Notes under the pieces: model-generated
Databases searched by the model: none
What the model saw: the letters and a program-made list of their open reading frames with translations, nothing else
Told to the model about the DNA's origin: nothing
Shown: one piece after another, positions 13,260-55,745 of the stretch
Numbering within the stretch: position 1 is the stretch's first letter
How the letters are laid out: every line of letters starts with the position of its first letter
Translations under genes and position numbers: made by a program
Source: Flavitalea plasmicola
GTDB taxonomy: Bacteria > Bacteroidota > Bacteroidia > Chitinophagales > Chitinophagaceae
Reading direction: 5' to 3'
DNA: 64,000 nt
Assembly (NCBI RefSeq): GCF_030546645.1
Contig: NZ_JAUOTO010000004.1
Coordinates: 124,001-188,000 of the forward strand

Positions 13260-13291
13260 GGCTGCAAGCTGCAAGCCTCCAGCTGCCAGCC
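13260..13291. repeat. Short copy of the 7-bp CAAGCTG repeat
   Basis: About two and a half units of GCTGCAA followed by a degenerate reverse-like arm (AGCTGCCAGCC), between the FecR-like and DUF155 genes. It belongs to the same family as the repeats near 19.4, 27.1, 27.3, 35.6 and 55.6 kb. Any function here is unknown; it lies just upstream of the DUF155 start. Confidence 0.6.
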
Positions 13292-13330
13292 AGGGTTTTG
13301 GGGAATGTGGGGAATCGATTAACTTGTATT

Positions 13331-14113
13331 ATGCTTCCAGTCGTTTCATACCAGATAGCTGACAGTATCGACGTCAAATCATTCAAAAATATCTTCAGCG
13401 AAGGGATCACTCACTATGATGCGGACGAGCTGTTCTACAAAATGGGGCCGGAATCTTATGTATATGTTTTTAAATATGGGGTTGTCTGTTTTCTGAATGC
13501 GGACGAGGGGACCTGCAAGGGGTTCCTTGACCGGATCACCCCCTATTGCAAATATCCATTTGAGCATCCTTTAACCGAGGAATTCCAGATCGAGACCAAT
13601 GCAAAAGAGAACAAGTTTGGTTACAATACGATCGAGATCATCAATGCGGACACGGAAACACTGCGGCTGATCATGCTGAATGTCAGCCAGTCGGTGGCAT
13701 TGGATTATTTCTCGGACCAGACCAATGCGCTGCTGGAGGAGACCAATTCCCAGACCTTACTGCTGGAAAGGAAGGGCAGGCTTTCATTGTCAGGGAAAAG
13801 CCTTAAAAAATATATCGGGAGAACGCTTAATCTCAAGAACCGGATCTCGGAGAATCTATACATATTCGATTCGCCTCCTGAAACATGGGAGGATGAGAAC
13901 CTGAATAAGATCGATCTGGGGCTTAAGCGGACTTTCGACCTGCAGGAGCGATTCAGGGATGTCAAGGAGGGTTTGGAGATCATAAGAGAAAACCTGGAGC
14001 TTTTCAAGGACCTCCTGCAGTACCGTAACAGCACGGTCCTGGAATGGATCATTATTATTCTTGTCTCTGCGGAGGTGGTGAATATTCTTATCGAAAAAAT
14101 CTTCAAGTTTTGA
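13331..14113 (+). CDS. RMD1/YagE-type DUF155 protein
   Basis: Member of the DUF155 family (yeast Rmd1/Sif2, human RMND1), whose molecular activity is not established. The family hallmarks are YVYVFKYGVVCFLN near the N-terminus, the middle motif LNVSQSVALDYF, NRISENLYIFDSPPETWEDE, and a C-terminal hydrophobic anchor (WIIIILVSAEVVNILI). I chose the ATG at 13331 (260 residues). A TTG at 13298 would add 11 residues partly encoded by the repeat-rich leader. Expected location: inner membrane by the C-terminal tail. It is transcribed alone, with 217 bp or more to its nearest co-directional genes, so the context gives no clue to its job. Confidence 0.85.
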   Translation: MLPVVSYQIADSIDVKSFKNIFSEGITHYDADELFYKMGPESYVYVFKYGVVCFLNADEGTCKGFLDRITPYCKYPFEHPLTEEFQIETNAKENKFGYNTIEIINADTETLRLIMLNVSQSVALDYFSDQTNALLEETNSQTLLLERKGRLSLSGKSLKKYIGRTLNLKNRISENLYIFDSPPETWEDENLNKIDLGLKRTFDLQERFRDVKEGLEIIRENLELFKDLLQYRNSTVLEWIIIILVSAEVVNILIEKIFKF

Positions 14114-14379
14114 TGTTGGCCGGCATTATATATGAACAAAGCTAATATGATCTCAATTGATTGATCTTCAGTTTTTTGGATGAAAGGTTCCAGGTTTTAG
14201 GGCCGATATTTATTATACTATCCGAATATAAATTGCGTTTGGCTGTCTGAAATTTTTTCTTTGACAGGTGAATCGGAAACATTGCCTGTTGTATGAAAGT
14301 CCATCTTCTTCGGCTATGTCCCTCCGATGCCGGAATGTCGATTACCATCTTCCATTCTTAAACAAACAAACAGCTGTTT

Positions 14380-17300
14380 ATGACAAAAAAGCGATTGCTG
14401 CTATGGTGTACCTTGTGCACTTTTTTTCTTTTTGGGCTACGTGTTGCCCGGGCGCAGGACCGGACGATCACCGGGACGGTGAGCGATGAAAAAGGGGGAC
14501 CGTTGAATGGCGCCACGGTCAAGGTAAAGGGTTCCAGCCAGGGGGTCAGCACGGATGCCACGGGGCGTTTTTCCCTAACGGCCCCGGCTAAGGTGTCTGC
14601 CCTGGAAGTGTCCTATGTGGGTTTTGAGACGCTGCAGGTTGGGATCACGGGTAGCGGACCTTTGCAGATCATTTTGCAGCCAGCTAAGGGTAGTCTGGAC
14701 GAAGTGGTCGTAGTGGGTTATGGAACACAAAAACGTAAGGATGTAACGGGTTCTGTCGCCAGCGTAAAAGGGGCTGCCATCAAAAATCAGCCGGTGACGA
14801 ACGTGACGGAGGCGTTGCAAGGCCGGGCTGCCGGCGTGGAGGTGATAAAAAATTCGGGTGAGCCGGGCGCGACGCCGACGATCATTATCCGGGGTTTGTC
14901 CTCCCTGCACCAGCCGGGTCCATTGTATATCGTGGACGGGGTGCGTGTACCGGGGGACAATATCAATATCCAGGATATTGCGACCATCGATATTTTGAAG
15001 GATGCGAGTGCCGCCGCCATTTACGGGTCTGCGGCGGCGGGAGGGGTCATCATCATCACCACGAAGAAGGGAGGGGGCGCCAAGCCGGCGATCAATTTCA
15101 ATGCGCGCTATGGTATCACGAAACCGAAATTGGTAAAGCTGCTGGACAAGCCGGGATTTATCAAGCTGTACAATATCACGCATCCTACTTTCTTTGCGGG
15201 AGCGACGCATACGGATACGCTGGCTAATACGGATTGGGTAAAAGCGTTATACGGGGATGCCTATGAGCAGAACTACAACCTTTCCGTATCGGGCTCGACG
15301 CCTGTGGTGAACTATCTTTTCTCGGGCTTTTACAATGCGCAGAAAGGCATTTATATCAAGAACTACTCCAATATAGCCGGCGCGCGGATCAATACGGACT
15401 ATAAGCTGGCGGAATTCCTCAAGATCGGGGAGCAGCTGGCTATCTCGCAAAGGAGGACGGCCCCGCTGGTGGGCACGGAAGCGCAGCTGCACAATGCGCC
15501 TTTCCGTACGCAGCCGATCATCCCTATCAAACGTGCAGATGGCAGCTGGGGGGTGGTTCCCCCGGGATATAATGGTCTTGCTTTTGGCGGTCCGAATCCT
15601 GTAGGCTCCGCACAGTCCGCCAATGCGCAGAACTTCCGGAATAACCTGCAGGCGAATGTCTATGCCGAAGTAAAGCTGCCACTGCACCTGAGCTTCCGGA
15701 CCAATTTCGGATATTCCTATTACCTGGAGACGCAGGACTATTTCCAAAATTCCTTCAATTTCGGATCTGTCACCAATACGAATAACTCGCTCAACAAGTA
15801 TTATATCGAAAGCTCGCAACTGCTGAGCAACTATGTGCTGACCTATGACCAGCGCTTTGGGAAGCATAGCCTCAATGCCGTGGCGGGGTACGAGCAGATC
15901 AGGAACACGTTTAATACGGTGAATGCCCTGGAGACCTCTGTGGGTAAGGAGAATTATTCCTTTGTCCAGACCTCACAGACTTCGATCACTGCTTCCGGGT
16001 ATAGTGACAACAATGGGTTGATAAAGTCTTTTTTTGGCAAATTGTATTACAATTTCGACAACCGGTACTATGTCTCCGGAACGATACGCCAGGATGCCAA
16101 TTTTACGGTGTTTGGACCTAACAGGCAGAAGGGTGTTTTTGGCGCGGCCAGCGTGGGCTGGACGATCAGCGACGAGGGATTCTTCAAACCGCTGACCCGT
16201 GGGGTGAACCTGCTGAAATTCAGGGGCAGCTACGGGGCGCTTGGCAATAGCGCCATCCCTCCCTATACTTATTCGGCTACGTACAGCAAGTTCCTTGGGT
16301 CTTCGGGGCTGGGCTCTTTGTCGGGTGCGAACTTCGCCCCGGGCGCTCCGCTGCTGATCGGCAATGCGATCAACTCTATCCCCAATCCTAATATCCATTG
16401 GGAGACCGTGTATGAGACGAACATAGGGCTTGATGGCGAGGCGTTGAAAGGCAAGCTGTATTTCACGCTGGACTGGTATAATAAAACGACGAAGGATGTG
16501 CTGTATGCCTTGCCGCTGTCGCTGAGCTCAGGTTTTACGGCGCCTTATTTTACGAATATAGGGAAGGTGAGCAGCAAAGGCTTCGACATCCTGCTGGGCT
16601 ATCGCAGCAAGGCGGGAGCGCTGGGTTATGATGTGAGCGCAACGGCGGGCTTTAACAAGAACAAGGTCCAGGACCTGGATGGTATTACAACGGATGCCTT
16701 GTATGACGGCTACAATTATTACAACAATGGGAATTCGGGCTATGGCATCATGGCTAATCAGACGTTGACGATCACCAAGGCCGGCCTGCCTTTTGGCAGT
16801 TTTTATGGGTATGAGGCACAGGGGCTTTTCAAGACGGATGCGGAAGCGGCTGCCAGCGCGCAGCCCAACGCCAAAGCGGGCGACCTGAAATTTGCGCATG
16901 ATGCGAAGAATGGTACGACGTTGTCTCCCGATGACCGGCGGGTGATCGGCAATCCTAACCCGAAGCTGGTGTATGGCTTTACTGTCCGGCTGGACTATAA
17001 AAATTTCGACGCCGCCTTTTTATTCAACGGGGTAGCGGGCGTACAGCTTTTCAACGGAGTAAAGGCCTACGAGCAATATCCATTTGCCGACGGCAATACG
17101 ACCAGCAAGGTTTTTGGCGACTCCTATTTTGGCGGCAATCAATTGACCTCCCAGCCCCGCCTGGGGATTGTGAACCCGGACGGCAGCTTCAACCTGGACC
17201 CGAACAAGAACTATACTTCCGTGAACAGTTATTTTGTAGAGAGCGGCAGCTACCTGAAACTAAAGAACGTGCAGGTGGGCTATACGTTCTCGGGCGGATT

Positions 17301-17529
17301 ACTGAATAAGATCGCTGTAAGAAATGCAAGGCTGTTCGTAATGGCCAATAACCTCTTCACCATCACGCATTATTCGGGGCTGGACCCTGAGATCGGCAGC
17401 GCTTTTTCGCAGGCTGCGATGTCGGGATTCGTCGGCACAACCGTGGGAGTCACGACGCGAGGATTGGATGCGGTGTCCCAATATCCGCAAACGCGGATCT
17501 ATTCGGCCGGCATTGACTTTAATTTTTAA
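14380..17529 (+). CDS. SusC/RagA-family TonB-dependent outer-membrane transporter
   Basis: Outer-membrane importer that works with the SusD lipoprotein encoded 13 bp downstream, energised by TonB. Residues 1-26 form a signal peptide (ends RVARAQ). A CarboxypepD_reg-like domain follows (ITGTVSDEKGGPLNGATV). Then comes the SusC box (DEVVVVGYGTQKRKDVTG) and plug domain (IIIRGLSSLHQPGPLYIVDG), and a long beta barrel ending in SAGIDFNF with the C-terminal Phe typical of barrel insertion. The length of 1049 residues is normal. The GH97 gene after susD suggests an alpha-linked glucan or galactoside as substrate. No anti-sigma interaction (STN) domain and no adjacent regulator are present, so control of this locus is not visible. 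Confidence 0.95.
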   Translation: MTKKRLLLWCTLCTFFLFGLRVARAQDRTITGTVSDEKGGPLNGATVKVKGSSQGVSTDATGRFSLTAPAKVSALEVSYVGFETLQVGITGSGPLQIILQPAKGSLDEVVVVGYGTQKRKDVTGSVASVKGAAIKNQPVTNVTEALQGRAAGVEVIKNSGEPGATPTIIIRGLSSLHQPGPLYIVDGVRVPGDNINIQDIATIDILKDASAAAIYGSAAAGGVIIITTKKGGGAKPAINFNARYGITKPKLVKLLDKPGFIKLYNITHPTFFAGATHTDTLANTDWVKALYGDAYEQNYNLSVSGSTPVVNYLFSGFYNAQKGIYIKNYSNIAGARINTDYKLAEFLKIGEQLAISQRRTAPLVGTEAQLHNAPFRTQPIIPIKRADGSWGVVPPGYNGLAFGGPNPVGSAQSANAQNFRNNLQANVYAEVKLPLHLSFRTNFGYSYYLETQDYFQNSFNFGSVTNTNNSLNKYYIESSQLLSNYVLTYDQRFGKHSLNAVAGYEQIRNTFNTVNALETSVGKENYSFVQTSQTSITASGYSDNNGLIKSFFGKLYYNFDNRYYVSGTIRQDANFTVFGPNRQKGVFGAASVGWTISDEGFFKPLTRGVNLLKFRGSYGALGNSAIPPYTYSATYSKFLGSSGLGSLSGANFAPGAPLLIGNAINSIPNPNIHWETVYETNIGLDGEALKGKLYFTLDWYNKTTKDVLYALPLSLSSGFTAPYFTNIGKVSSKGFDILLGYRSKAGALGYDVSATAGFNKNKVQDLDGITTDALYDGYNYYNNGNSGYGIMANQTLTITKAGLPFGSFYGYEAQGLFKTDAEAAASAQPNAKAGDLKFAHDAKNGTTLSPDDRRVIGNPNPKLVYGFTVRLDYKNFDAAFLFNGVAGVQLFNGVKAYEQYPFADGNTTSKVFGDSYFGGNQLTSQPRLGIVNPDGSFNLDPNKNYTSVNSYFVESGSYLKLKNVQVGYTFSGGLLNKIAVRNARLFVMANNLFTITHYSGLDPEIGSAFSQAAMSGFVGTTVGVTTRGLDAVSQYPQTRIYSAGIDFNF

Positions 17530-17542
17530 TAAACTTATTTAT

Positions 17543-19384
17543 ATGATCAAGAAAATATATTTCCCCACGTTGCTGTCGATTTTGCTGATCACAGGCTGTA
17601 CGAAGGACCCTTCTCTTGTAGCGCCCACCAATCAATATTCCACGGGCAATTACCCGGCGAGCATGGATGACCTGAACAGTGTGCTGGCCACCTGCTATTC
17701 GAATCTCCGCGACCCCAACCTTTATGGGTTCAACCTGTTGCCCAAGGCATTGGCTAACTGTACGCATGTGGCTAATTCCATTTGGGATGGGGATGGATTC
17801 TGGAATGAGATGGCGTCCACCAATTTGTCGGCGCCGAATTCGTATGTGCTGGGGGCATGGACCTCTTTCTATGCGGGCGTGAAAAACTGTAACAGCCTGA
17901 TGAGCGCAGCTGATTTTTATTCCGCGCATTTTGCCAAGGCGGGGGAACAGCCGGCCATTGACCTGGTGCGGGGTCAGGCTTATTTTCTCAGGGCCTTCTA
18001 TTATTTCCAGCTGGAATGTTATTTCGGGGAAAGCTATATGACCCAGAGCGCCGGAGGGGACAAGATGGGCGTGCCCATTTTCGATAAGGTGCCATCGGGG
18101 CTGGACAGCACGCAGAAGCCGCGGAGCGCCGTAAAGGATGTGTGGGCATTTATAGAGAGCGACCTGCAGCAGGCGGCAACGCTGCTGAAGGGGACCGTGT
18201 GGACGGGTAATGACAGGGGCAGGGCCAGTGAATGGGCCGCCAAGAGCCTGCTGGGGAAGGCTTATGTGTTCACCCAGGATTGGGTCAAAGCAAAAGCGAC
18301 CTTGCTGGATGTGATCAACAATAGCGGACGGAAACTGATGCCTTATGCCAAGTACCGGGATGCTTTCATCGGAATAACGGACAATGAGTTCAACGAAGAG
18401 TCATTATTCGAGCTGAACATCGATCTGGATGCAAAAGGTAACTATGGGGTATATGGTGATGCGCCCAATGCCACTTCCATCAATGGACTGATCTGGTGTC
18501 CCTGGGCGTTGGGATATGATGGTACGGAAGGCAGCAGCATTCCATTGGGGTATGGTAACGAGATCCTTCATGATAAGAATGTATTGCGGTTTGGCTATTC
18601 CATCGGCAGCTATGGACTGGTGGACAATCCGAATTTCGACGCCAGCTACAAACCGGACAAGAGCGGCTATATCTCGGATAAATGGCCTAAAAAAATCATG
18701 GACCCTGCTTATAAGACGCAGGCATTACAGGTGAGGACCGATAAGACGGCGGACCCACGACTGTATGTGAATGCGCTGCAGCCCTGGATCGATTCTGTGA
18801 TCTTCCAGGACCCTGTATGGCAGCGGGTGTCCAGGCCAAATTTCTATGCGGAGCAATCCGACAAGTATGGATTTAGCATCCGGAAGTATTCGCCCGTCTT
18901 CAATAGCGTCAATAATGTGAAGGGGGGGCAGGCGGATGGCGCCAATATCTATCTTCTTCGCCTGGCTGATGTCTACCTGTTGTATGCCGAGGCCTGCAAG
19001 GGCAGCAATGATGATGCGAATGCGCTGGAGTATATCAACAAGGTGAAGCGGAGGGCGTATAGTTATCCCGTGGATGCGGCTTCGCCGGTGGATTATAGCA
19101 GCCTTACGGCCCAGACGAGCGCTGCTGCCGCTGCGGACCCTGTGTTGGGGAACAATCCTTTATATTATGAACGTTGGGCGGAGCTGTTCAATGAGGGGCA
19201 GTGGTGGTTTGATCTTTGCCGCTGGAAGCTGGGGGCGTCGGAGGCGAGCTTTTATGGCGCGGCGTTGAATGTGCATACGGGGGCGCTGGCTTTTCCGGCC
19301 AAGACGTATGCCTGGCCAATTCCGCAGAATGAGCTCAATTCAAATAGTAAGATCGTGGGGCAGCAAAACCCTGGGTATAACTAA
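17543..19384 (+). CDS. SusD/RagB-family surface lipoprotein
   Basis: Glycan- or nutrient-binding lid of the preceding SusC pore. I chose the ATG at 17543 (613 residues) because it starts a lipoprotein signal, MIKKIYFPTLLSILLITGC, with a proper lipobox at Cys19. A longer frame from 17468 would overlap susC. The SusD fold is supported by an N-terminal helix-rich region (AYFLRAFYYFQLECYFGE), the middle PRSAVKDVWAFIESDLQQA, and the C-terminal motif LYYERWAELFNEGQWWFDLCRW. The stop is followed directly by a long hairpin made of 7-bp repeats, which probably ends or attenuates the message before the GH97 gene. Confidence 0.95.
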   Translation: MIKKIYFPTLLSILLITGCTKDPSLVAPTNQYSTGNYPASMDDLNSVLATCYSNLRDPNLYGFNLLPKALANCTHVANSIWDGDGFWNEMASTNLSAPNSYVLGAWTSFYAGVKNCNSLMSAADFYSAHFAKAGEQPAIDLVRGQAYFLRAFYYFQLECYFGESYMTQSAGGDKMGVPIFDKVPSGLDSTQKPRSAVKDVWAFIESDLQQAATLLKGTVWTGNDRGRASEWAAKSLLGKAYVFTQDWVKAKATLLDVINNSGRKLMPYAKYRDAFIGITDNEFNEESLFELNIDLDAKGNYGVYGDAPNATSINGLIWCPWALGYDGTEGSSIPLGYGNEILHDKNVLRFGYSIGSYGLVDNPNFDASYKPDKSGYISDKWPKKIMDPAYKTQALQVRTDKTADPRLYVNALQPWIDSVIFQDPVWQRVSRPNFYAEQSDKYGFSIRKYSPVFNSVNNVKGGQADGANIYLLRLADVYLLYAEACKGSNDDANALEYINKVKRRAYSYPVDAASPVDYSSLTAQTSAAAAADPVLGNNPLYYERWAELFNEGQWWFDLCRWKLGASEASFYGAALNVHTGALAFPAKTYAWPIPQNELNSNSKIVGQQNPGYN

Positions 19385-19468
19385 GCCTCAAGCTTCAAGC
19401 TTCAAGCTGCAAGCTGCAAGCCAGGACTTAATAAGACACTTGTAGCTTGTAGCTTGAGGCTTGTAGCT
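19385..19468. repeat. Hairpin built from inverted CAAGCTT/CAAGCTA heptamers
   Basis: The left arm is 19385-19422, with heptads CAAGCTT twice and CAAGCTG twice. The right arm is 19439-19468. Bases 19385-19406 pair with 19439-19460 in 20 of 22 positions, leaving a 32-nt loop. It begins on the base after the susD stop codon and could fold as a terminator or mRNA-end stabiliser, but no T-run follows. It belongs to the repeat family found inside xdhA, allB and the haloperoxidase gene. Confidence 0.8.
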
Positions 19469-19507
19469 ATGTGAATGGCCGTTTTTTAAAAGTTTATATT
19501 TTTTACT

Positions 19508-26615: not shown

Positions 26616-28163
26616 ATGATACGATTTATTCTCAATAGTAAGCTCATCGCGGCGGATGAACCGCCGGGCATGTTGCTGTTAGACCTTGTGCGTTACCGGG
26701 AGCACCTGACGGGCACCAAGATCGGATGCCGGGAGGGGGATTGTGGGGCGTGTACGGTTCTGATCGGGGAATTGACGGGAGGGGGGATGGTTTACCGTTC
26801 GGTCACTTCCTGCCTGACCGCCCTGGGGAATGTTCATCAGAAGCATGTAGTGACGATCGAAGGTATGAACATGGAGGGGTTGAATCCCCTGCAACAGGCT
26901 GTTTGCGAGGAAGGGGGAACGCAATGCGGTTTTTGCACGCCCGGGTTTATCGTTTCGATGGCGGGATTTTGTCTGAGCGGCCATGCCCCGACGCAGGCGG
27001 CGGCGCGGGCTGCTGTGGATGGGAATATCTGTCGCTGCACGGGATATAAGTCGATCGAGCGGGCGTTGGATAGGATGAATGATCTGCTGAAGGAAGCTGT
27101 GAGCGGTGAGCTGCGAGCTACAAGTGGGGGGGAAGCTGCAAGCTACAAACTGCAAGCTACAAGTGGGGGATTGGATAAGATGAGGTTTTTGGTGGAGCAA
27201 GGGATCTTGCCGGAATATTTTTTGGACATCCCTAAGCGGATGGCGGAGTTGGCATTGGAGCCGAATGGAGCGGTGAGAGCAGCTGCGAGTGAGGGAGAGG
27301 AAGCTGCAAGCTACAAGCCGCAAGCTGCAAGTGGAAGGAATGGATTGGATACGAGAGGGCGAAGGTTTTTGGGTGGAGGGACGGATCTTTATGTGCAGCA
27401 GCATGCGGCCATGGTGGGAGCTGATATTGGTTTTTTGACTGTGGGAGACCAATTGAAAGGTATCGTGCAGGAAGGGGGGCGATGTGTCATCGGCGGGGCT
27501 GCTACGGTGACGGACCTAATGGAATCTCCCGTAATACGACAGGCTTTTCCGCGATTTGAGCACTATGCCCGGCTGATCTCGTCTACACCTATACGTAATA
27601 TCGCCACGGTGGCCGGTAACTTTGTCAATGCCTCGCCGATAGGTGACCTCACCATTTTTTTCCTGGCGTTGGATGCGTCGTTAACGTTGAGCGATGGCGT
27701 TGCAAGGCGGGAGCTGCCGCTGCGGAAATTCTTTAAGAAATATAAGACATTGGATAAGCGGCCCGAAGAATTCGTTGAAAAGGTGTCTTTTGATCTTCCG
27801 GGAGGGCGGGGGCTTTTCCATTTTGAAAAGGTGAGCAAGCGGACCTGTCTGGATATTGCCAGTGTGAATACGGCGATGTTGGTGAAGATGGAGGGAGGGG
27901 TGATAACAGAAGGGCATCTTTCGGCAGGCGGTGTCGGACCGGTGCCAGCGTATTTGGAAGGCACCTCTTTGCTGATGAAGGGGCGTCGGGTGGACGAGGG
28001 GCTGGTGGCGGAAGTTTTGGAGAGCGCTGATGGCGAGATCAGACCTATCAGTGATGCCCGGGGGACGGAGGCGTATAAGCGGCTGTTGCTGGGCCAGCTG
28101 ATCAAAGGACATTTTTTGACATTGTTTCCCGGCCTGTCCGTTGAGGCGCTGCTGGAAATATAA
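26616..28163 (+). CDS. xdhA: Xanthine dehydrogenase, 2Fe-2S/FAD subunit, with repeat-encoded inserts
   Basis: Electron-transfer subunit of xanthine dehydrogenase, which oxidises hypoxanthine/xanthine to urate. Residues 1-80 form a plant-type 2Fe-2S domain (Cys38, Cys43, Cys46, Cys66). Residues 80-155 form the second 2Fe-2S domain (Cys104, Cys107, Cys139, Cys141). Residues ~185-395 form the FAD domain (FLGGGTDLYVQQ, RNIATVAGNFVNASPIGD) and the rest the CO-dehydrogenase flavoprotein C-terminal domain. Two stretches, ~162-185 and ~222-243, are encoded by 7-bp tandem repeats (peptides like AASYKLQATSGG). The first lies in the linker before the FAD domain, the second early in it, before the GGGTD loop. 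The frame stays open, so the enzyme is probably still made. Naming follows Rhodobacter (xdhA small, xdhB large). Confidence 0.95.
   Translation: MIRFILNSKLIAADEPPGMLLLDLVRYREHLTGTKIGCREGDCGACTVLIGELTGGGMVYRSVTSCLTALGNVHQKHVVTIEGMNMEGLNPLQQAVCEEGGTQCGFCTPGFIVSMAGFCLSGHAPTQAAARAAVDGNICRCTGYKSIERALDRMNDLLKEAVSGELRATSGGEAASYKLQATSGGLDKMRFLVEQGILPEYFLDIPKRMAELALEPNGAVRAAASEGEEAASYKPQAASGRNGLDTRGRRFLGGGTDLYVQQHAAMVGADIGFLTVGDQLKGIVQEGGRCVIGGAATVTDLMESPVIRQAFPRFEHYARLISSTPIRNIATVAGNFVNASPIGDLTIFFLALDASLTLSDGVARRELPLRKFFKKYKTLDKRPEEFVEKVSFDLPGGRGLFHFEKVSKRTCLDIASVNTAMLVKMEGGVITEGHLSAGGVGPVPAYLEGTSLLMKGRRVDEGLVAEVLESADGEIRPISDARGTEAYKRLLLGQLIKGHFLTLFPGLSVEALLEI
27094..27168 (+). repeat. Heptamer repeat insert 1 in xdhA
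   Basis: Two imperfect copies of a ~37-bp block, each ending CTACAAGTGGGGG and built on the 7-bp unit CAAGCTG/CAAGCTA (also degenerate GTGAGCG units). It is translated in frame inside the linker between the second iron-sulphur domain and the FAD domain. The edges are approximate. Confidence 0.75.
27278..27335 (+). repeat. Heptamer repeat insert 2 in xdhA
   Basis: A degenerate first part (AGCTGCGAGTGAGGG) followed by AAGCTGCAAGCTACAAGC units and ending GCTGCAAGTGG. It is translated in frame as ~20 residues rich in Ala, Ser, Lys and Gln, just before the FAD-binding GGGTD loop. The edges are approximate. Confidence 0.75.
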
Positions 28164-34981: not shown

Positions 34982-36373
34982 ATGAAGACTGCTGTACATA
35001 GCAAGCGTGTGATCCTGCCCGACGGGGTCAGGGAAGCTACTTTATTCATAGAGGGTGGGATGATAACGGGGGTTGTCGGGGGGTTGGCGATGGCGGAAGG
35101 CATGGATCTGGTGGAGGTGGGGGATTCGGTGGTCATGCCGGGGGTGATCGATCCGCACGTGCATATCAATGAGCCGGGGAGGACGGACTGGGAGGGGTTT
35201 GACACGGCAACGCGTGCGGCGGCGGCAGGGGGGCTCACTATGTTGGTGGATATGCCGCTGAACTCGTCACCTGTGACTACCACCGGGGCGGCGTTTGACC
35301 GGAAGCGGGAAGCTGCTGAAGGGCGATTGCATTGCGACTGTGGTTTTTGGGGTGGCGTAGTTCCGGGAAATGAGCATGAGATTGAAGCGCTGATCGGGCG
35401 TGGCGTATTGGGTTTTAAAGCATTTCTCACTCATTCCGGGATCGATGAGTTCCCTAATGTGACGGAGGCTGATCTGCACAAGGTGATACCTATCATTGCT
35501 GCGCATGGATTGCCTTTATTGGTACATTGCGAGTTGGAAGGGGCGGGAACAGCTGCAAGCGGGGAGATACAAGCTGCAAGCTACAAGCTACAAGCTACAA
35601 GTGGGGGTAGAGGGGGAATGGATAGGGATCCCAGATCATATAGGAATTATCTTTTGTCACGACCTGCCAGGTGGGAAGTCGATGCGATCGACCTGATGAT
35701 AAGGTTGTGTGCGCAATATGGGTGCCGTACGCATATCGTTCACCTGTCATCTGCGGCGGCAATAGGGGCTATCCGGCAGGCGAAGGAGCGGGGGCTGCCA
35801 TTGACGGTGGAGACGGCGCCGCATTATTTATATTTTTCAGCGGAGGATATCGGAGACGGGGAGACGTATTTCAAATGCGCGCCTCCTATCCGTGAGCGGG
35901 AGAATAACGCGGCATTATGGGAAGCGTTGCGGGAGGGGGTGATCGACTTTGTGGCTACGGATCATTCTCCGGCGCCTCCGGCGATGAAAGAGCCGGAGGG
36001 GGGTGATCTTACCAGGGCGTGGGGTGGTATTGCTTCCTTGCAGCTGTCGCTCCCGGTTGTATGGACGGCAGCCAGGCGGAGAGGGTTTGAGGCAGGGGAA
36101 CTGGCGCGGTGGATGTGTGCGTCGCCGGCGTTGCTGGTGGGTGAAGCGGGGCGGCGTGGTAAGATCGCACGTGGATATAGCGCGGACTTCGTAATATGGG
36201 ACCCTGTGGGATCATTCCGGGTGGAGCGGGAGGGCCTGCTGCATCGACATAAGGGGACACCTTACCTGGGGGAGGAATTAAACGGAGTGGTGGAACAGAC
36301 CTGGCTGAGAGGGGAAAAAATATTTGATAAGGAAGGGGGCGTACGACTCAATAGAGGGAGGGTGGTGATATGA
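34982..36373 (+). CDS. allB: Allantoinase, with a repeat-encoded insert
   Basis: Hydrolyses allantoin to allantoate in the cytoplasm. It is a cyclic amidohydrolase with a two-metal site: GVIDPHVHINEPGRTDWEGF (His59, His61), the carbamylated Lys146 in GFKAFLTHSG, His182 in LLVHCE, a second His in THIVHLSS, and the catalytic Asp in VATDHSPAP. Allantoinase rather than dihydroorotase is supported by HVHINEPGRTDWEGF and by the neighbours. Residues ~188-211, right after the HCE metal motif, are encoded by a 7-bp tandem repeat and read AASYKLQATSGG-like. The family has a variable loop here, so activity may survive. The stop overlaps allC by 4 bp. Confidence 0.95.
   Translation: MKTAVHSKRVILPDGVREATLFIEGGMITGVVGGLAMAEGMDLVEVGDSVVMPGVIDPHVHINEPGRTDWEGFDTATRAAAAGGLTMLVDMPLNSSPVTTTGAAFDRKREAAEGRLHCDCGFWGGVVPGNEHEIEALIGRGVLGFKAFLTHSGIDEFPNVTEADLHKVIPIIAAHGLPLLVHCELEGAGTAASGEIQAASYKLQATSGGRGGMDRDPRSYRNYLLSRPARWEVDAIDLMIRLCAQYGCRTHIVHLSSAAAIGAIRQAKERGLPLTVETAPHYLYFSAEDIGDGETYFKCAPPIRERENNAALWEALREGVIDFVATDHSPAPPAMKEPEGGDLTRAWGGIASLQLSLPVVWTAARRRGFEAGELARWMCASPALLVGEAGRRGKIARGYSADFVIWDPVGSFRVEREGLLHRHKGTPYLGEELNGVVEQTWLRGEKIFDKEGGVRLNRGRVVI
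35549..35608 (+). repeat. Heptamer repeat insert in allB
   Basis: Starts with AGCTGCAAGCGGGG and continues through CAAGCTG and three CAAGCTA units, ending CTACAAGTGGGGG, the same right border as the first xdhA insert. It is translated in frame as about 20 residues. Confidence 0.8.
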
Positions 36374-40967: not shown

Positions 40968-41272
40968 TCCCAGGAGAATATATATTGGCCAAAGAGGATA
41001 TTCCATGCAATGTTGGCCGGGAAGTCCGCAGGCTAACGGTGGTGAATAAGGGCGATCGTCCTGTTCAGATCGGCAGCCATTTTCATTTTTTCGAAGTAAA
41101 TAAGGAGATGGATCTCGACCGTGCGAAGGCATTCGGCATGCGGCTGAATATTCCTTCGGGTACGGCTGTCCGATTTGAGCCTGGCGAGGAGAAGGAAGTA
41201 GCGCTTGTGCCGCTGGGAGGATTGCGGCGGGCGGTGGGGTTCAATAATCTTGTAAACGGGCCTACGACATGA
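40964..41272 (+). CDS. ureB: Urease beta subunit
   Basis: Structural subunit of urease, 102 residues. It shows the family core [30 protein letters not shown] and the end [17 protein letters not shown]. It forms the (alpha-beta-gamma)3 complex with UreA and UreC in the cytoplasm. It overlaps both ureA and ureC by 4 bp, so the three subunits are translationally coupled. Confidence 0.97.
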
Positions 41273-42990
41273 GTTTATCCATCAACCGTACAAAGTATGC
41301 AAATCTTTATGGTCCCACGACGGGGGACAGGGTCCGACTGGCGGACACGGAGCTATTCATACAAATAGAGAAGGATCACACCGTCTATGGCGATGAGGTC
41401 AAGTTTGGCGGAGGGAAAACGATCCGGGACGGCATGGGGCAATCCGCCACGGCCACCCGGAGCGAAGGGGTGCTGGACCTGGTGATAACGGGGGTGATCA
41501 TCATCGATCATTGGGGGATCGTGAAGGCGGATATTGGCATAAAGGATGGGAAGATCGTGGGGATCGGAAAGGCGGGTAACCCGGACACGATGGAGGGCGT
41601 GGATGAGCACATGGTCATTGGCGCTTCGACAGAAGTGCATGGAGGCGCCGGGTTGATCGTGACACCGGGCGGGATCGACGCGCATATTCATTTTATCTGC
41701 CCACAGCAGATTGATCATGCGTTATATAGCGGTATCACCACGATGATCGGTGGGGGGACCGGGCCGGCGGACGGGACGAATGCCACGACGGTGACGCCAG
41801 GGGCATGGAATATCCGGCGGATGCTGGAGGCGGCGGAAGCTTTCCCCATGAATATAGGATTTCTGGGAAAGGGGAATTGTGCGACGGAGGCCCCTTTGGA
41901 GGAGCAGATCGAAGCCGGCGCCCTGGGATTGAAGATCCACGAGGACTGGGGATCGACGCCTGCGGTGATCGATGCATCGCTGAGGGTGGCGGATAAGCAT
42001 GATGTACAGGTGGCTATTCATACGGACACGCTGAATGAGGCGGGGTTCCTGGAAAGTACGATGGCGGCTATCGGTGGCCGGGTGATCCATACGTATCATA
42101 CGGAGGGTGCGGGAGGGGGGCATGCTCCTGATATCATCCGTGCAGCAATGTATCCGAATGTGCTGCCTTCGTCGACCAATCCAACCCGGCCGTATACGGT
42201 CAATACCATCGATGAGCATTTAGATATGCTGATGGTTTGTCATCATTTGAATAAGTCGGTGCCAGAGGATGTGGCATTTGCCGACTCCCGTATCCGTCCG
42301 GAAACTATTGCCGCGGAGGATATCTTACATGATATGGGGGTAATCAGCATGATGAGCTCGGATTCCCAGGCGATGGGACGTGTGAGCGAGGTGATCCTGC
42401 GTACCTGGCAGACGGCGGACAAGATGAAGAAGCAACGGGGCAGCCTGCCGGAGGATACGGACAAGGGACATGATAATTTCCGTGTAAAGCGTTATGTCGC
42501 CAAGTATACCATCAACCCCGCTATCACGCATGGGATCTCGGCGTATGTAGGGAGCTTGGAAGTGGGGAAGATTGCGGACCTCGTTTTATGGAAGCCCGCG
42601 TTATTCGGCGCCAAGCCGGAGATGATCATTAAGGGCGGGATGATCATTGCCGCCAGGATGGGTGATCCCAATGCCAGCATTCCCACGCCGCAGCCTGTGA
42701 TCTACCGGCCTATGTTCGGCGCTTATGGGAAAGCATTGTTCAATACCTGCGTGACTTTCGTATCGGGTGTGTCTTTGAGGGCGGGTACGGTACAGGGGTA
42801 TGGTTTGCAGAAGAGGGTGTTAGCTGTAGGGGGGTGTAGAGGTCTTTCCAAGCGAAGTATGGTGCATAATGATCAAATGCCTTCCATCGAGGTGAACCCG
42901 GAGAACTATGAGGTGCGGGTAGACGGACAGGTAGTCACTTGTGAGCCGTCGCGTGAGGTGGCGTTGGCGCAGCGGTACTTTTTATTTTAA
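41269..42990 (+). CDS. ureC: Urease alpha subunit (catalytic)
   Basis: Catalytic nickel subunit, 573 residues. All active-site residues can be seen: His139 and His141 in [11 protein letters not shown], the carbamylated Lys222 in [10 protein letters not shown], further nickel and substrate His in AIHTDTLNE and [12 protein letters not shown], the flap Cys324 with His325 in MVCHHLN, and Asp365 in [10 protein letters not shown]. Nothing is missing, so the enzyme should be active once nickel is inserted by UreDEFG, whose genes follow directly. It receives urea from ureidoglycolate breakdown if that step exists, or urea from outside; no urea transporter gene is present here. Confidence 0.98.
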
Positions 42991-43487: not shown

Positions 43488-44137
43488 ATTTATTGGGTTT
43501 ATTGCAACTGAGTGATCCGGCTTTGCCGATCGGGGGGTATGCGCATTCGGGCGGGCTGGAAACCTATGTGCAGGCGGGGATTGTATGCGATCCGGTCAGT
43601 GCGGGGAATTTTGTGCAGGCGCTGTTGCGGACGAGTGTGCATTATACGGATGCGGCATTGGTGGCTTTGGCTTTTAAGGCGGTGCGTGCTCCCGGGGAGT
43701 TGTCGGGTTTGGATCAGTTATGTGAAGCCGTGAAATTGCCCAGGGAGATGCGGGAGGCGAGCAGGAAGTTAGGAGGGAGGTTGGGGAAAATATTTGAGGG
43801 ATTGGTGGGCCCGGCAAGTGATGGGTGTTTCAGGTTTCCCAGGCACTATCCGGTGGCTTTTGGGTATTGCGCGGCCAGGCTGGGTATTGGGTTGCGTGAA
43901 GCGTTGACGGGATATTATTACAATGCGGCAGCGGGGATAGTGACCAACTGTGTGAAGCTGATACCGATGGGGCAGCAGGATGGGCAGGTGCTGTTGTTCT
44001 CCTTACAGCCTTTGATAACGGAGCTGGTGGAGCAGAACCTGGAGCCGGACAGGGAGTTGATCGGTATGTGCTGCGTGGGCCTGGATATCCGCTGTATGCA
44101 GCATGAGCAATTGTATTCCCGGCTATACATGTCCTGA
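43484..44137 (+). CDS. ureF: Urease accessory protein UreF
   Basis: Helical protein that links UreD and UreG in the urease activation complex and controls the GTPase. I chose the ATG at 43484 (217 residues) because it begins MNLLGLLQLSDPALPIGGYA, the family N-terminus, and overlaps ureE by 4 bp. The frame is open upstream to 43355 but that part lies inside ureE. Family motifs are SGGLETYVQAG and the C-terminal DIRCMQHEQLYSRLYMS. It abuts ureG without a gap. Confidence 0.94.
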   Translation: MNLLGLLQLSDPALPIGGYAHSGGLETYVQAGIVCDPVSAGNFVQALLRTSVHYTDAALVALAFKAVRAPGELSGLDQLCEAVKLPREMREASRKLGGRLGKIFEGLVGPASDGCFRFPRHYPVAFGYCAARLGIGLREALTGYYYNAAAGIVTNCVKLIPMGQQDGQVLLFSLQPLITELVEQNLEPDRELIGMCCVGLDIRCMQHEQLYSRLYMS

Positions 44138-49463: not shown

Positions 49464-49474
49464 AATGTCTAATT

Positions 49475-50533: not shown

Positions 50534-53500
50534 CTAAGGTTGGAAAGGCAGCTCTCTTTTATTGCCGGAGAAAGAGGTGATGATGGCCTTTTTTACATTG
50601 TTATTCAGGGGAAGTTTACGGGAGCTTTGTGACAGGTAAGTAGAGCCGTAATAGCATTCCATATGCCTTTTTTGCCCGTTGTTATATAAAATGTCGATGG
50701 AAAAGTCCTGGGGTTGCAGATCTACCCAATGGCGGGTGGGGATGGTGGAGAGTGCGGTAACGACGAGGCTGTCCTGGTTTTGGGTAGCGATCCATATGTC
50801 TTCGTTACGGGCGGTGTGGAGCCTGGCGAGGCCTTTTGCGTCCCCTTTTACATAGAAACCGCTGGCGCCAAGAGAGAGGGGGGTGAAGCCGCCTTTGCCG
50901 TCTCCGTGCATGTAGAGTCCCATGAAAGCGTCATGCCGGCCACTGTACGGATCCATACCATAATCATTACCAACCATCAGCACGTCCAGGTTACCGTCTC
51001 CGTCGATGTCTTCGGCGTCCATGCCATAGACGGGGGCTATCTGTGCGGCGGAGGGCAGCGCGCGAATGGAAAATTTTCCATTGCCCAGGTTCTCGATATA
51101 ACTGCTGGCCATATCCGTAGCCTGAAAGAAGAGGGCATTCTCTTTATCCTTTGGTTTCCAGAGGTCGTCCATGGAAGCCATGCCATAGGCTTTATAGGTG
51201 GGATACCGTCGCCGGATAGAGATCATCTGGCTGACCATGTCATCGCGGGAGGCCATGGGAAAGGGTTTGCGGGAACCGTCTTCGGCTTTCATATAGCAGA
51301 AGACCATGGCGTCCAGCAGGCCATTCTCGTCCAGGTCTTTGGCGTAGAGTGTCATGGGCTCTGCGGGGCTGGCCTGGTAGTTGGAGTTGAGCCCCAGGTT
51401 GCCAGCTATGTAATCGATGTCGCCATCGTTGTCGAAGTCTCCCGCAACCAGGCTGTTCCACCAGCCTGTATGGCCGGCAATGCCGGTGTTTTCGTTGATG
51501 TTGATGAGGCCGGCGCCCGTATTCTTCAGGAAGGTGATAGGCATCCATTCTCCCGTCAGCACGAGGTCGGGCCTGCCGTCATTGTCGAAATCGGACCAGA
51601 GGGCGTCGGTGACCATGCCGATGTACTGTAATCCGGGGCACCATCTTTTCGTGACGTCGAAGAAGCTGCCGGAATGATTTTCCAGGAGATAGCTTTGGGG
51701 AGCTGTAGGATAGGCGCCCGATGTAACTCTGCCGGCCACGAAGAGGTCCAGGTCACCATCCCCGTCGAAATCGGCGGCCCGGACGCAGCTGCCGTTGGAG
51801 AACATTTTCGGCAGCGCGGGATAGTTGGGTGTAAATCTGCCTTGTCCGTCGTTGATATACAGCACGTCCTGGCTGGCAACATGGTCGGGAGGAAATTCAT
51901 AGCTGCCGCTGACGACATAGAGGTCGAGGTCTCCGTCATTGTCTGCGTCAAAGAACAGCGCCGCCATGTCTTCGCCGGGATGACCGTCGTTCACCAGCAT
52001 ACGGGTGGAATCCAAAGTGAAAACACCTTTGGCATCCTGCAGGAAAAAGACCCCTTTGTGACCGGTTGCGCCGCCTATATAAAAATCTTCGTACCCATTC
52101 TTATCTATATCACCTACTGCGATGCCCGGCCCATACTGGCTGAGCTTGTGCGGCAGGGCCGGCTGAATATTGTAATCGATGACGTCTTTCTCCTCTGGCT
52201 TGAAATGGATGTTATAATTGGAGGAGACATCTTTGAAGAGTGGGATGGGATTGGAATGTCCGGAAGGATCTGCATATCCATTAGCGTCGGCATAGGACAG
52301 GGCCAGGGCACGGTCGACGGGAAGGTCTTTTAACAGCTGTGTTTTTCCATCGGGCCAGCGTATGCGCAGCGAGTCGATCCGTGTTACGTTGCCCAGGCCG
52401 AAATGGGCCCGGTAGTCATCGGTGGACATATAGCCGCGGCAAGGCTGGTGTTCGTATAATTGCTGCTGTCCGCCATTGTAATAAATGCGAATGACGGACC
52501 CGATGCCGTAGGTGTTCTGGCCTTGTCCTGTAAGCGCTACGGTCAGCCAATGGTCTTTTGAGGAATGGCCGGGGCTTTGCAAGGTGTTCTCGTAGACAAA
52601 TGCTGTTTCATTGATATTGTTGATCACGAGATCCAGGTCGCCGTCATTATCCAGGTCGGCATAGGCGGCTCCATTGGAGAAAGAAGGATGGGTAAATCCC
52701 CATTCGGTGCTGGTGTTGCGGAACCGATAGCCACCTGTATTTTTAAAGCAATAGCCGGGCAGGCGGACGACCGGGAGAGAGTCCACCAGCTTTAATGAGT
52801 AGTTGCCTGTGCCGCCGCCCTGTCCGTTGTTGTAGGTGACATAGTCGAGGTCGGTGACATCACGGGGCAGGCCATTGGTGACCAGGAGATCGCGAAACCC
52901 ATCGTTGTCAAAATCAGCCACGAGGGGGCACCAGCTCCAATCTGTCTCGTACACGCCGGCCATGAAACCCACTTCGCTATAGACGGAATGACCTTCCGGA
53001 GCCATGCCCCTGTTGAGCTGGAGGACATTGCGCACGTATTGATGCGTGTATCCGAAGCGCTGGCTGTTGAAGTAATTATAATACTCGTTGCCTGAGAGCA
53101 TCCTCTTCTTCCGAAGATTGTTCTCGGGCAGCATTTCAAGGGAAATGATATCAGGCAGACCATCATTGTCGACGTCCACGACATCGGTGCCCATGGCATT
53201 CCAGCCGGTGTGGCGGAAATAGTCCTTTAGCCTATCGGTGAAAGTGCCATCGTGATTGTTGATATAAAGGAGGTCGTTGGAGACGAAGTCATTGCTGACA
53301 TAAACATCGGGCCATCCGTCTCCGTTGAAATCGGAGATGCAGGCTGCGTGTCCCCATCCTTCTATCAGGATCCCTGCTTCCTTCGAGACATTAGTGAAAG
53401 TGCCGTTGCCGTTGTTCCTGTACAGGCGATCGTTGTCGAGTGCACTCCCGTCCACGACTTTTGGTCTGAAGCGGATGGGGGTTTTGGGGTCATTGATCTG

Positions 53501-54118
53501 ATTGGTTACCAGGTAAAGGTCGAGGTCTCCGTCATGATCGTAGTCGAAGAAGACACCTTGCGTGCTGAACCCCGTGTCGGCAATGCCATAGGCGAGGGCC
53601 GACTCTTTAAAGACGGGTATGCCGTCCTTACCGGCGCCCTGGTTGATATATAGCAGATTGGTCCTCAGCCGGGCGTCTTTCCGAAAAGAGGCGGAGACAT
53701 AGATGTCCAGCCACCCATCCCCATTGATATCTACGACGGAGACACCTGTGCACCATCTTCCTTCGCCAGTGACGCCTGCTTTCTCCGTGACGTCCCGGAA
53801 CTTCAGGCCGCCCGAGTTGAGGAATAATTTGCAGGAAACCATATTACCGGAGAGAAAGACGTCCTGCAATCCGTCGTGATTGAAGTCGCCGATGCCGACT
53901 CCGCCGCCATTGTAAATATTGGCCTGGTTCAGGATGTTCAGGGAATCGCTTTCGAAGATCTTATTGGAAAAGTCGATGCCTGTGCGGGCGGCGGGGAGCA
54001 ATTGAAAGAGGGTGGGGGATTTGGGCTGTGCGTAAGTTATGATGTTCACCAGGAGTGCTGGCAGGAGCAGGGCCGAAATGGAATGTAAACGTTGCCATAG
54101 CATTTGACGGGACATCAT
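50534..54118 (-). CDS. Giant FG-GAP/VCBS repeat protein with ASPIC/UnbV domain (CRTAC1-like)
   Basis: Exported 1194-residue protein with a signal peptide (ends NIITYAQ). About fourteen calcium-binding DxNxDGxxD-type loops can be counted (DFNHDGLQD, DINGDGWLD, DYDHDGDLD, DADNDGDLD and others), forming two beta-propeller blocks. Between them (~500-620) lies the ASPIC/UnbV domain (YGIGSVIRIYYNGGQQQLYEHQPCRGY then DSLRIRWPDGK). The family is common in Bacteroidota near SusC/SusD genes; the role is thought to be surface binding or adhesion but no activity is proven. It is divergent from the haloperoxidase gene with ~180 bp between the starts. Confidence 0.92.
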   Translation of the reverse strand: MMSRQMLWQRLHSISALLLPALLVNIITYAQPKSPTLFQLLPAARTGIDFSNKIFESDSLNILNQANIYNGGGVGIGDFNHDGLQDVFLSGNMVSCKLFLNSGGLKFRDVTEKAGVTGEGRWCTGVSVVDINGDGWLDIYVSASFRKDARLRTNLLYINQGAGKDGIPVFKESALAYGIADTGFSTQGVFFDYDHDGDLDLYLVTNQINDPKTPIRFRPKVVDGSALDNDRLYRNNGNGTFTNVSKEAGILIEGWGHAACISDFNGDGWPDVYVSNDFVSNDLLYINNHDGTFTDRLKDYFRHTGWNAMGTDVVDVDNDGLPDIISLEMLPENNLRKKRMLSGNEYYNYFNSQRFGYTHQYVRNVLQLNRGMAPEGHSVYSEVGFMAGVYETDWSWCPLVADFDNDGFRDLLVTNGLPRDVTDLDYVTYNNGQGGGTGNYSLKLVDSLPVVRLPGYCFKNTGGYRFRNTSTEWGFTHPSFSNGAAYADLDNDGDLDLVINNINETAFVYENTLQSPGHSSKDHWLTVALTGQGQNTYGIGSVIRIYYNGGQQQLYEHQPCRGYMSTDDYRAHFGLGNVTRIDSLRIRWPDGKTQLLKDLPVDRALALSYADANGYADPSGHSNPIPLFKDVSSNYNIHFKPEEKDVIDYNIQPALPHKLSQYGPGIAVGDIDKNGYEDFYIGGATGHKGVFFLQDAKGVFTLDSTRMLVNDGHPGEDMAALFFDADNDGDLDLYVVSGSYEFPPDHVASQDVLYINDGQGRFTPNYPALPKMFSNGSCVRAADFDGDGDLDLFVAGRVTSGAYPTAPQSYLLENHSGSFFDVTKRWCPGLQYIGMVTDALWSDFDNDGRPDLVLTGEWMPITFLKNTGAGLININENTGIAGHTGWWNSLVAGDFDNDGDIDYIAGNLGLNSNYQASPAEPMTLYAKDLDENGLLDAMVFCYMKAEDGSRKPFPMASRDDMVSQMISIRRRYPTYKAYGMASMDDLWKPKDKENALFFQATDMASSYIENLGNGKFSIRALPSAAQIAPVYGMDAEDIDGDGNLDVLMVGNDYGMDPYSGRHDAFMGLYMHGDGKGGFTPLSLGASGFYVKGDAKGLARLHTARNEDIWIATQNQDSLVVTALSTIPTRHWVDLQPQDFSIDILYNNGQKRHMECYYGSTYLSQSSRKLPLNNNVKKAIITSFSGNKRELPFQP

Positions 54119-54297
54119 ATGGTTTGCGATTCGTTTGGGTCATGCAAGATAGGTAAAGGTGTGTGGGGCGTAACATCCTGCATAGGAAATGAAACAAATG
54201 GAATATAAAATGATCGGAAATTGATAGACGGGTTTGTTCTATTGCGGTAAGTTGCCGGCCGGAACAATGTAATCGTTTGATCTCAATTGATTGCTGT

Positions 54298-55644
54298 ATG
54301 AGAATAGTTGCTATTGCTGTACTTCTGCTGGTGTTGGCCCTGCCGGGTCAATGCGGTGATTGGAAAACAAGGGTGGAAGACCCTACGCTGATCCACGAAT
54401 GTGTAAAGAAAGTCACCGATGTTATCGTTTACGATATTTTCTCCCCGCCTGTCGCCAGTCGTATTTATGCTTATATGACGGTGGCGGGGTATGAGGCTGC
54501 CCGTCCGGGTAATACGTCTTATGCGTCGTTGGCGGGAAACCTCCATGGATTGGGGAATGTCCCTGCTCCGGAGGCAGGGCGTCCCTGCAATTATTCACTT
54601 GCGGCTGTACAGGCGATCCTGTCGGTGGGAAAGGCGCTGGTGATATCCGAGGGAAAGGTGGAAGCATTCGAAACACAGCTGATGGCCGGGGTCCGGTCCT
54701 CCGGAATACCGGGTGAGGTATATGCTAATTCCGTGGAGTATGGCAGGAAAGTAGCGGCTTATATCCTGGCCTGGGCTGCAAAGGACCATTACAAGGAGAC
54801 GAGGTCGGAGCCTAAATATGACCTGAGCAATGATGCGTCGGCATGGAAGCCTACTCCCCCCGCTTATATGAAGGCGGTGGAACCACATTGGAGTGAAATG
54901 CGCACCTTTCTGTTGGATTCCGCCCGGCAATTTGTACCGCATCCCCCGACTCCTTTTTCTGCGGAGAAGGGAAGCGCTTTTTACCAGGATGCGCTGGAAG
55001 TGTATGACGCCGGCCTCAAGCTGACCGAAGAACAAAAGGCGGTGGCCAATTTCTGGGATTGCAATCCTTTTAAAATGAATGTGAACGGGCATCTGATGTT
55101 TGCAACGAAGAAGATCTCCCCGGGCGGGCATTGGATCAACATTACTTCGGTGGCCTGTCAAAAGGCCGGTGCCGACTTTATCCGTTCGGCCGAGGCCTAT
55201 GCCTGGGTTTCCATTGTCATTGCGGATGCGTTTATCAGCTGCTGGGATGAGAAATACAGGAGTAAGGCCATCCGGCCGGAGACATATATCAATCAATATA
55301 TCAGCGCGGATTGGATGCCCTTGTTACAGACGCCTCCTTTCCCGGAGTATACGAGCGGGCATAGTGTGGTGTCGGCGTGCGCCGCGGTGGTATTGACGAA
55401 GCTGTTTGGGGAAGGGTTTGCTTTTACAGACTCGACGGAAGTGGAGTTTGGGATACCGCCGAGGCGTTTTGTTTCTTTCCGGCAGGCGGCGGAGGAGGCG
55501 GCCATCAGTCGATTTTATGGGGGGATCCATTTCAAACCGGCGATCAATTATGGGCTGGAAGAGGGGGATAGGATTGGGAAGTTTGTTAGCTGCAAGCTGC
55601 GAGCTGCAAGCTGCAAGCTGCAAGCTGCAAGCTGCAAGCGGTGA
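54298..55644 (+). CDS. Vanadium-dependent haloperoxidase-like protein (PAP2 superfamily)
   Basis: Exported enzyme that may oxidise halides with H2O2 or act as a phosphatase; both use the same pocket. The ATG at 54298 (448 residues) starts a signal peptide, MRIVAIAVLLLVLALPGQCG; a TTG at 54277 is less likely. The vanadate/phosphate site is complete: Lys319-x6-Arg326-Pro, TSGH with His355, and SRFYGGIH with Arg405 and His411. The last ~20 residues are encoded by the 7-bp tandem repeat (AASCKLQ-like units) and the stop codon lies inside it, so the natural C-terminus has probably been replaced. It is divergent from the FG-GAP protein gene, a pairing often seen in Bacteroidota. Confidence 0.88.
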   Translation: MRIVAIAVLLLVLALPGQCGDWKTRVEDPTLIHECVKKVTDVIVYDIFSPPVASRIYAYMTVAGYEAARPGNTSYASLAGNLHGLGNVPAPEAGRPCNYSLAAVQAILSVGKALVISEGKVEAFETQLMAGVRSSGIPGEVYANSVEYGRKVAAYILAWAAKDHYKETRSEPKYDLSNDASAWKPTPPAYMKAVEPHWSEMRTFLLDSARQFVPHPPTPFSAEKGSAFYQDALEVYDAGLKLTEEQKAVANFWDCNPFKMNVNGHLMFATKKISPGGHWINITSVACQKAGADFIRSAEAYAWVSIVIADAFISCWDEKYRSKAIRPETYINQYISADWMPLLQTPPFPEYTSGHSVVSACAAVVLTKLFGEGFAFTDSTEVEFGIPPRRFVSFRQAAEEAAISRFYGGIHFKPAINYGLEEGDRIGKFVSCKLRAASCKLQAASCKR

Positions 55645-55745
55645 GCTACGAGCGGTGAGCTGTGAGCTGTGAGCGGTGAGCGGTGAGCTGCAAGCTGCAA
55701 GCTGTGAGCTACAAGCTGCAAGTGGTGGGCTATGAGCGGTGAGTG
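55585..55745. repeat. Long heptamer repeat array at the haloperoxidase 3' end
   Basis: The largest member of the family, about 160 bp. It starts with about six nearly perfect GCTGCAA units, then degenerate GTGAGCG/GTGAGCT units, then a second GCTGCAAGCTGCAAGC block with a CAAGTGG border. It supplies the last codons and the TGA stop (55642-55644) of the haloperoxidase gene and fills the gap to the AraC-type regulator gene. Confidence 0.85.

Follow-up and report, generated by a model that had tools for sequence, protein, structure and literature searches.

Cyanobacteria, xanthomonads and Beggiatoa are reported to carry tandem heptamer repeats, whose role and origin are unsettled. Genes of the IVP, or four-helix-bundle, family are widespread and have, to our knowledge, no known function. 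Intervening sequences of rRNA are inserts bounded by inverted sequence, and repetitive extragenic palindromic (REP) sequences, the REPINs built from them and miniature inverted-repeat transposable elements (MITEs) are short, inverted, dispersed and probably non-autonomous. Here we describe arrays of the heptamer CAAGCTN in the genome of Flavitalea plasmicola, seen in a 64-kb stretch of contig NZ_JAUOTO010000004.1 (positions 124,001 to 188,000; the window). We lean towards regarding them as the arms of a small insertion element dispersed through the genome, with the short copies as relatives, lacking an open reading frame (ORF), of a hairpin element that bears an IVP gene. Which heptamers have been described elsewhere? 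GGGAATC and GGGGA(C/T)T repeats of Xanthomonas and Nostoc form G-quadruplexes, according to the accessible portion of PMC4692102, and TAACTGA is reported from Beggiatoaceae, cyanobacteria and five Bacteroidetes, in 169 direct-repeat sets and one indirect set that mostly face start codons (PMC4679880, in the part available). Both reports, as far as accessible, place their heptamer families at gene ends and leave the cause unsettled. The original prediction, made from the letters of the window alone, took cyanobacterial heptamers as the nearest parallel, a fair choice; its statement that the group had no described counterpart fails, a different heptamer, TAACTGA, being on record there.

The repeat is real, as that prediction held, and extends well beyond the window. 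Within the 64 kb the pattern CAAGCTNCAAGCT has 11 matches, compared with a mean of 0.02 expected, and 0 of 100 shuffles reach 11; Tandem Repeats Finder places 7-bp arrays at 19383-19421, 19439-19468, 27133-27163, 27301-27331, 35568-35601 and 55588-55722. The whole genome (G000; 8.73 Mb in 19 contigs, C11 and C14 among them) holds 353 matches (197 plus, 156 minus), with 0 for the reversed-pattern control. The 32 other members of the genus have 0 to 16 each; counts of 1 to 3 equal the level of their own reversed controls (0 to 2), and only G023 (16) and G018 (7) stand out. Named genomes scanned with (CAAGCTN)3 gave at least 118 stretches, mostly in Pseudomonas, Stutzerimonas, Halomonas and Alcanivorax, the matches listed also including some Bacteroidota, Planctomycetes, Clostridia and others. 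Twenty named genomes picked for having CAAGCTN arrays count 5 to 343 such matches each, the reversed control being 0 in 18 of them, 1 in H. beimenensis (G060) and 16 in H. getboli (G075).

What accompanies the arrays? The sole PF05635 match of the F. plasmicola genome is a 116-amino-acid ORF that lies within an inverted CAAGCTN pair (C11:281831 and 282264), a full element copy located outside the window (G000:C11:281831-282298). This IVP matches PF05635 at 4.3e-33 and TIGR02436, 'four helix bundle protein', at 1.8e-33, with 2gsc and 2rld as solved relatives, and its gene lies between two called protein genes, not in 23S rRNA. In the genus 13 of 33 genomes have a PF05635 match, as do 17 of the 20 named genomes. 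Among 118 IVP places, 60 were examined (30 of 66 in the genus and 30 of 52 in named genomes) and 58 scored, the flanks of L301 and L325 being too short; the named genomes were preselected for CAAGCTN arrays and the genus loci carry no such preselection. The period-7 score at the 58 loci is 22.5 of 35 upstream and 22.6 downstream, versus 14.7 and 14.8 at 40 control loci, which are other genes, some with flanks that start within a gene (partial matches). Periods 5, 6, 8 and 9 give 14.1-16.0 in both sets alike. Scores of at least 24 of 35 on both sides are reached by 15 loci at period 7, two at period 8 and none at periods 5, 6 or 9, and by 0 of 40 controls at any period. An inverted 21-mer with at least 17 matches is present at 48 of 58 loci (23/28 genus, 25/30 named); the control genes reach this level at 2 of 40 loci, and flanks mismatched between IVP loci in 4 of 120 pairs. 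IVP genes are flanked by inverted 7-bp arrays in several phyla.

The heptamer itself varies. AACGCNN, GTTGACN, GTTGGCG, GATGACA, AAAGCCT, ATGAGTN, GGAAGTC and CAAGCTN are among those found at IVP genes, names being set by eye where the arrays are noisy. Six IVP loci occupy one orthologous place, with heptamers that differ by locus and two arms that are alike; the same holds for gammaproteobacterial IVP genes at a shared site (L333-L338, L340, L346) that, judged by its sequence, looks like the cysD-cysN spacer. At orthologous IVP sites both arms share one heptamer, and that heptamer differs between genomes. Of the 33 genus genomes, 8 contain (AACGCNN)3 (392 to 1 matches; control 0); all of them are among the 13 with an IVP and none among the 20 without, an association whose chance is about 1e-4 if kinship is ignored. 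A de novo search for period-7 arrays gave 14, 2 and 1 of them in three samples with an IVP, or 17.5, 5.0 and 6.2 per Mb, and none in three genomes lacking one (520 kb searched); these numbers are too small to settle the matter by themselves.

Plasmids were surveyed by tblastn with the F. plasmicola IVP, which returned 21 plasmid records, 19 of them cyanobacterial. Sixteen loci (H1-H16; 15 cyanobacterial) were taken at a coverage of at least 79%. Their mean period-7 score is ~23 of 35, and ten have inverted flanks, seven of period 7, two near-duplicate pairs among them, and three of period 8 instead (L368, L370, L371). Controls score higher than for the genome set: 10 of 100 with mismatched pairs and 4 of 32 with shifted positions. 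Phage records gave no IVP match. In three cyanobacterial plasmids the IVP gene sits within a CRISPR operon, between cas6 and cas4 in L362 and L363, with period-7 arms, and between cas10 and a cmr3-family gene in L368, with period-8 arms.

The anatomy of the short copies was studied in a 944-kb sample (C11:1-800000 and C14:84001-228000; genes called by a home-made hexamer model). Coding sequence takes up 88.8% and 94.0% of the two stretches, and of the 45 array rows (reversed control 0; a few overlap) 33 are intergenic and 12 lie in genes; the comparison of genic with intergenic frequency suggested earlier comes out in favour of spacers. Twenty of the 33 pair up face to face, giving ten pairs of the form (CAAGCTN)n - core - (NAGCTTG)n, and two further rows flank the IVP gene. 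A paired element measures ~75-125 bp in total and consists of CAAGCTN units (usually 4-8), the letters CAAG, a core of ~16-40 nt, the letters CTTG and a run of inverted NAGCTTG units. The window contains one: a left arm at 19382..19423 (+; 6 units by the array finder) holds the stop codon of a SusD gene inside its first unit and runs by its last unit into the core CCAGGACTTAATAAGACA (19421..19438, no strand, read from the letters), which is followed by the inverted right arm at 19439..19470 (-; finder row 19436-19470, 5 units). Intergenic arrays frequently begin at or a few bases from a stop codon, with which they share letters (TAAGC, TGAGCT, TAGCTN), and often pass into CAAGCCAGG or CAAGCCGG and then an AT-rich core. 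The cores often resemble CCAGGACTTAWTAAG, with 11 of 34 extracted strings (some nested) starting CC[AT]GG; some are common to several sites, and those of one Fulvivirgaceae genome differ. The arrays have the marks of heptamer repeats, namely tandem, dispersed and over-represented 7-bp units with an intergenic bias and outward polarity at gene ends. They also have MITE-like terminal inverted repeats, in the ten sample pairs and at 103 places genome-wide that match AAGCTNCAAGN{12,42}CTTGNAGCTT (nested starts counted). This pattern has 0 matches in G006, G013 and G023 and 2 in G018, is present in 13 of the 20 named genomes, and in reversed form is missing from all 25 genomes searched.

Congeners provide evidence of insertion. 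Four spacers that hold element sequence in F. plasmicola measure 133, 103, 102 and 96 bp versus ~16, ~5, <=12 and <=19 bp in G006, which has the same gene neighbours (the last two values are maxima, measured between the ends of the alignments). Site 24152|24287 has 134 bp versus ~38-47 in G006, and site 237722|237909 has 186 bp versus ~73-85. At 43554|43803 a hairpin conserved in G006 has gained company, with one element on each side in F. plasmicola, and the C-terminus of gene 239678-240379 reads into element sequence, unlike its counterpart in G006. Whole units have been inserted between conserved genes at several sites.

Genes are entered as well. An XdhA-like gene of the window (26616-28163) carries two array insertions, at 27093..27171 (+) between the Fe-S and FAD domains and at 27300..27338 (+) immediately before the FAD domain; an allantoinase-like amidohydrolase gene (34982-36373) carries a third at 35551..35612 (+). 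All three are in frame, lie between domains or where orthologues vary in length, and are missing from the orthologues in G006, G003 and G016, which bears out the expectation that the repeat can land in genes without truncating them. The repeat has entered genes of conserved enzymes without a frameshift, and one gene end has been rewritten by it. The original prediction had tied this ability to open frames. CAAGCTN is indeed open in all three forward frames and CAAGCTG, like CAAGCTC, in six, with CAAGCTA and CAAGCTT closed on the reverse strand; the property is not special, however, being shared by 68.7% (three frames) and 50.4% (six) of the 16,384 heptamers, any of which encodes one cyclic peptide whichever of three frames is read. 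In the 944-kb sample the free letter of exact units is G or A in 24 of 25 inside genes and T in none, and T in 17 of 118 outside genes (overlapping rows counted twice). The 12 gene-borne rows, in 8 genes, are all in sense orientation (two PAP2 rows overlap), and as to the frame bias also proposed for checking, eight rows share one phase and the two other phases hold two each. Sense orientation is not a general rule, with 10 sense and 11 antisense among the named-genome matches listed, a count in which several assignments are at gene ends and 6 more arrays at locus edges are excluded. The proposed CAAGTGG border ends the arrays of two window genes (XdhA-like twice, amidohydrolase once) and is present in the array near 55.6 kb, but it does not generalize: gene-borne arrays of C11 have other ends and many intergenic arrays differ. 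One gene, G000:C11:675194-676399, has two arrays that each adjoin a copy of the same stretch (EVGE.PEVGYEE-like), as if array and neighbouring stretch had been duplicated together.

How might such an element work? If the arrays are arms of an insertion element, the full form would carry a PF05635 IVP gene in place of the core, and the short copies would be ORF-less relatives, as MITEs are to transposons. In RNA the arms would fold into a long hairpin, which would leave the insert harmless between genes or in operons, like rRNA intervening sequences, perhaps by way of RNase III. The IVP would bind the hairpin and aid copying or insertion, with the enzyme supplied in trans. We propose a nucleic-acid-binding partner with a polymerase in trans because the IVP family is reported, in the accessible part of PMC10053308, to be homologous to Avd, the partner protein of diversity-generating retroelements. 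Slippage and conversion between arms may hold the heptamer uniform. We infer that the element is mobile and that the IVP has a role in its mobility. More tentatively, and with a good deal less conviction, we suggest a class of bacterial mobile elements without a name so far, namely a hairpin with concertedly evolving heptamer-array arms, its full form encoding only the IVP, copied through RNA by a reverse transcriptase in trans, with many unexplained bacterial heptamer families as its ORF-less copies.

Several observations weigh against the insertion element with an IVP-bearing full form. Ten of the 58 IVP loci fall below 17 of 21 matches (L303, L312, L313, L332 and L336 at 16; L314 and L342 at 15; L308, L351 and L355 at 14), and 6 of the 16 plasmid loci have no inverted flanks. 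G026 has 13 IVP matches (one under the cut-off), and 400 kb of its sequence hold only 2 strong period-7 arrays; G015 has 108 AACGC matches, yet its sole IVP gene has ATGAGTN arms. Arrays abound without any IVP match in P. helleri (43 triple matches), P. cichorii (80) and H. smyrnensis (56), and congeners G023 (16 pair matches) and G018 (7; genome 65% complete) likewise have none. A tree of 50 IVPs does not support the CAAGCTN-flanked ones as a single clade moved between phyla, and pairing of the N letters between two arms is not beyond chance (combined z -0.94). The gene-borne arrays of the sample are single-armed, with no palindromic insert, presumably because antisense CAAGCTA or CAAGCTT units would bring stop codons, which would also explain their sense orientation. 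No target-site duplication was seen at the orthologous sites, which are too diverged to show one, and the IVP site of F. plasmicola has no orthologous stretch among the G006 pieces compared, hence no empty site was seen.

Could the IVP genes instead be passengers that target the loop of heptamer hairpins already present, the arrays spreading by other means? Some insertion sequences do target REP palindromes, and this account would accommodate the array-bearing genomes that have no IVP (P. helleri, P. cichorii, H. smyrnensis, G023, G018) as well as unrelated IVPs that carry the same heptamer. It sits poorly with G026, where strong arrays are rare yet all three IVP loci examined have inverted flanks (19, 20 and 16 of 21) with three different heptamers, and with the persistence of IVP and arms together at orthologous sites while the heptamer differs. 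We consider it rather unlikely.

Selected 3'-end elements, that is, hairpins behind stop codons with a role in transcript termination, insulation or mRNA protection, would account for the 70 of 96 arrays behind a stop codon that begin within 18 bp of it among the named-genome matches listed. The 15 paired elements folded as RNA would suit such a role, at -34 to -64 kcal/mol (16 strings were run, and one incomplete string, at -12.1, was excluded), a stability that inverted arrays would have in any case and that does not prove a function. The same matches include 53 arrays behind start codons, copies also lie within coding genes and between co-directional genes, and the spacers of G006 are so short that any insert would adjoin a stop. 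We judge this improbable. Ordinary simple-sequence repeats, produced by polymerase slippage at random sites, find some favour in tandem 7-bp arrays of variable unit number and in the slippage proposed for heptamers in the accessible portion of PMC4692102; slippage may still set the number of units. The original prediction had named slippage among the grounds for its refutation, and slippage does not suffice, as inverted units with a core have been inserted whole between conserved genes, some cores are common to several sites, and the inverted arrangement flanks IVP genes; its chances as the full account are slim. REPIN-like elements moved by a RAYT/Y1 transposase, suggested by inverted pairs in spacers and two Y1_Tnp matches in the genome, are very improbable, with Y1_Tnp counts of 2 in F. 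plasmicola, 2 in G006, 5 in G026 and 4 in G009, the last three having at most one array match each. The co-occurring protein that had been anticipated exists, in the form of the IVP between inverted arrays; its suggested identity as a Y1 transposase is rejected, since the counts are uncorrelated with arrays (G006 also has 2 Y1 matches, with 1 array match versus 2 in its reversed control). Overall, the observation from which this work started is confirmed and its interpretation partly supported.

Two other window arrays complete the set. Between two genes at 13264..13290 (+), read from the letters, stand two CAAGC units only, with decayed flanks. At 55586..55745 (+) a long, variant-rich array of TGAGCGG, CGAGCTA and CAAGCTG units passes through the 3' end and stop codon of a PAP2-domain gene (54277-55644). 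Long arrays, here and at G000:C11:287680-287812, also contain a second, GC-richer class of unit (TGAGCGG, CGAGCTG) among the CAAGCTN units. Apart from SusD, the window holds a GH97 gene, and the two suggest Bacteroidota. An Rfam search of the window and of a 20-kb stretch with a large core gave one match, away from the arrays: 5_ureB_sRNA at 41422-41715 (-; 52.3 bits), antisense within ORF 41269-42990, which may perhaps be merely urease coding sequence. A tRNA inside the large core of the 20-kb stretch was sought and none was found.

How do these elements compare with known systems? A link between heptamer arrays and IVPs was not found described in a non-exhaustive search without subscription papers, which included the accessible parts of PMC2672173 and PMC5524665, and terms for IVP are absent from the text of PMC4679880. 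The accessible portion of PMC4692102 names no protein linked to the Xanthomonas and Nostoc heptamers, whereas CAAGCTN arrays adjoin an IVP; Xanthomonas does have an IVP (PDB 2gsc, XCC0516). TAACTGA resembles CAAGCTN in forming arrays scattered over phyla, and differs in having stops in forward frames and, in the part of PMC4679880 available, mostly direct repeats. The intervening sequences of 23S rRNA encode the same protein family (PF05635, TIGR02436), but the F. plasmicola copy lies between protein genes, has heptamer-array arms and is accompanied by many ORF-less copies. Rickettsia palindromic elements likewise insert in frame into unrelated metabolic genes; they are palindromes of ~150 bp according to the accessible part of PMC10969869, whereas gene-borne CAAGCTN copies are one-armed arrays. 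Avd belongs to retroelements, and a reverse transcriptase for the heptamer elements is a proposal only. Linking heptamer repeats and IVPs gives each a testable explanation. Like REP sequences, REPINs and MITEs, the heptamer elements are short, inverted, dispersed and probably non-autonomous; unlike them, they have heptamer arrays as arms, which change together from genome to genome, and the candidate partner is a four-helix bundle rather than a transposase.

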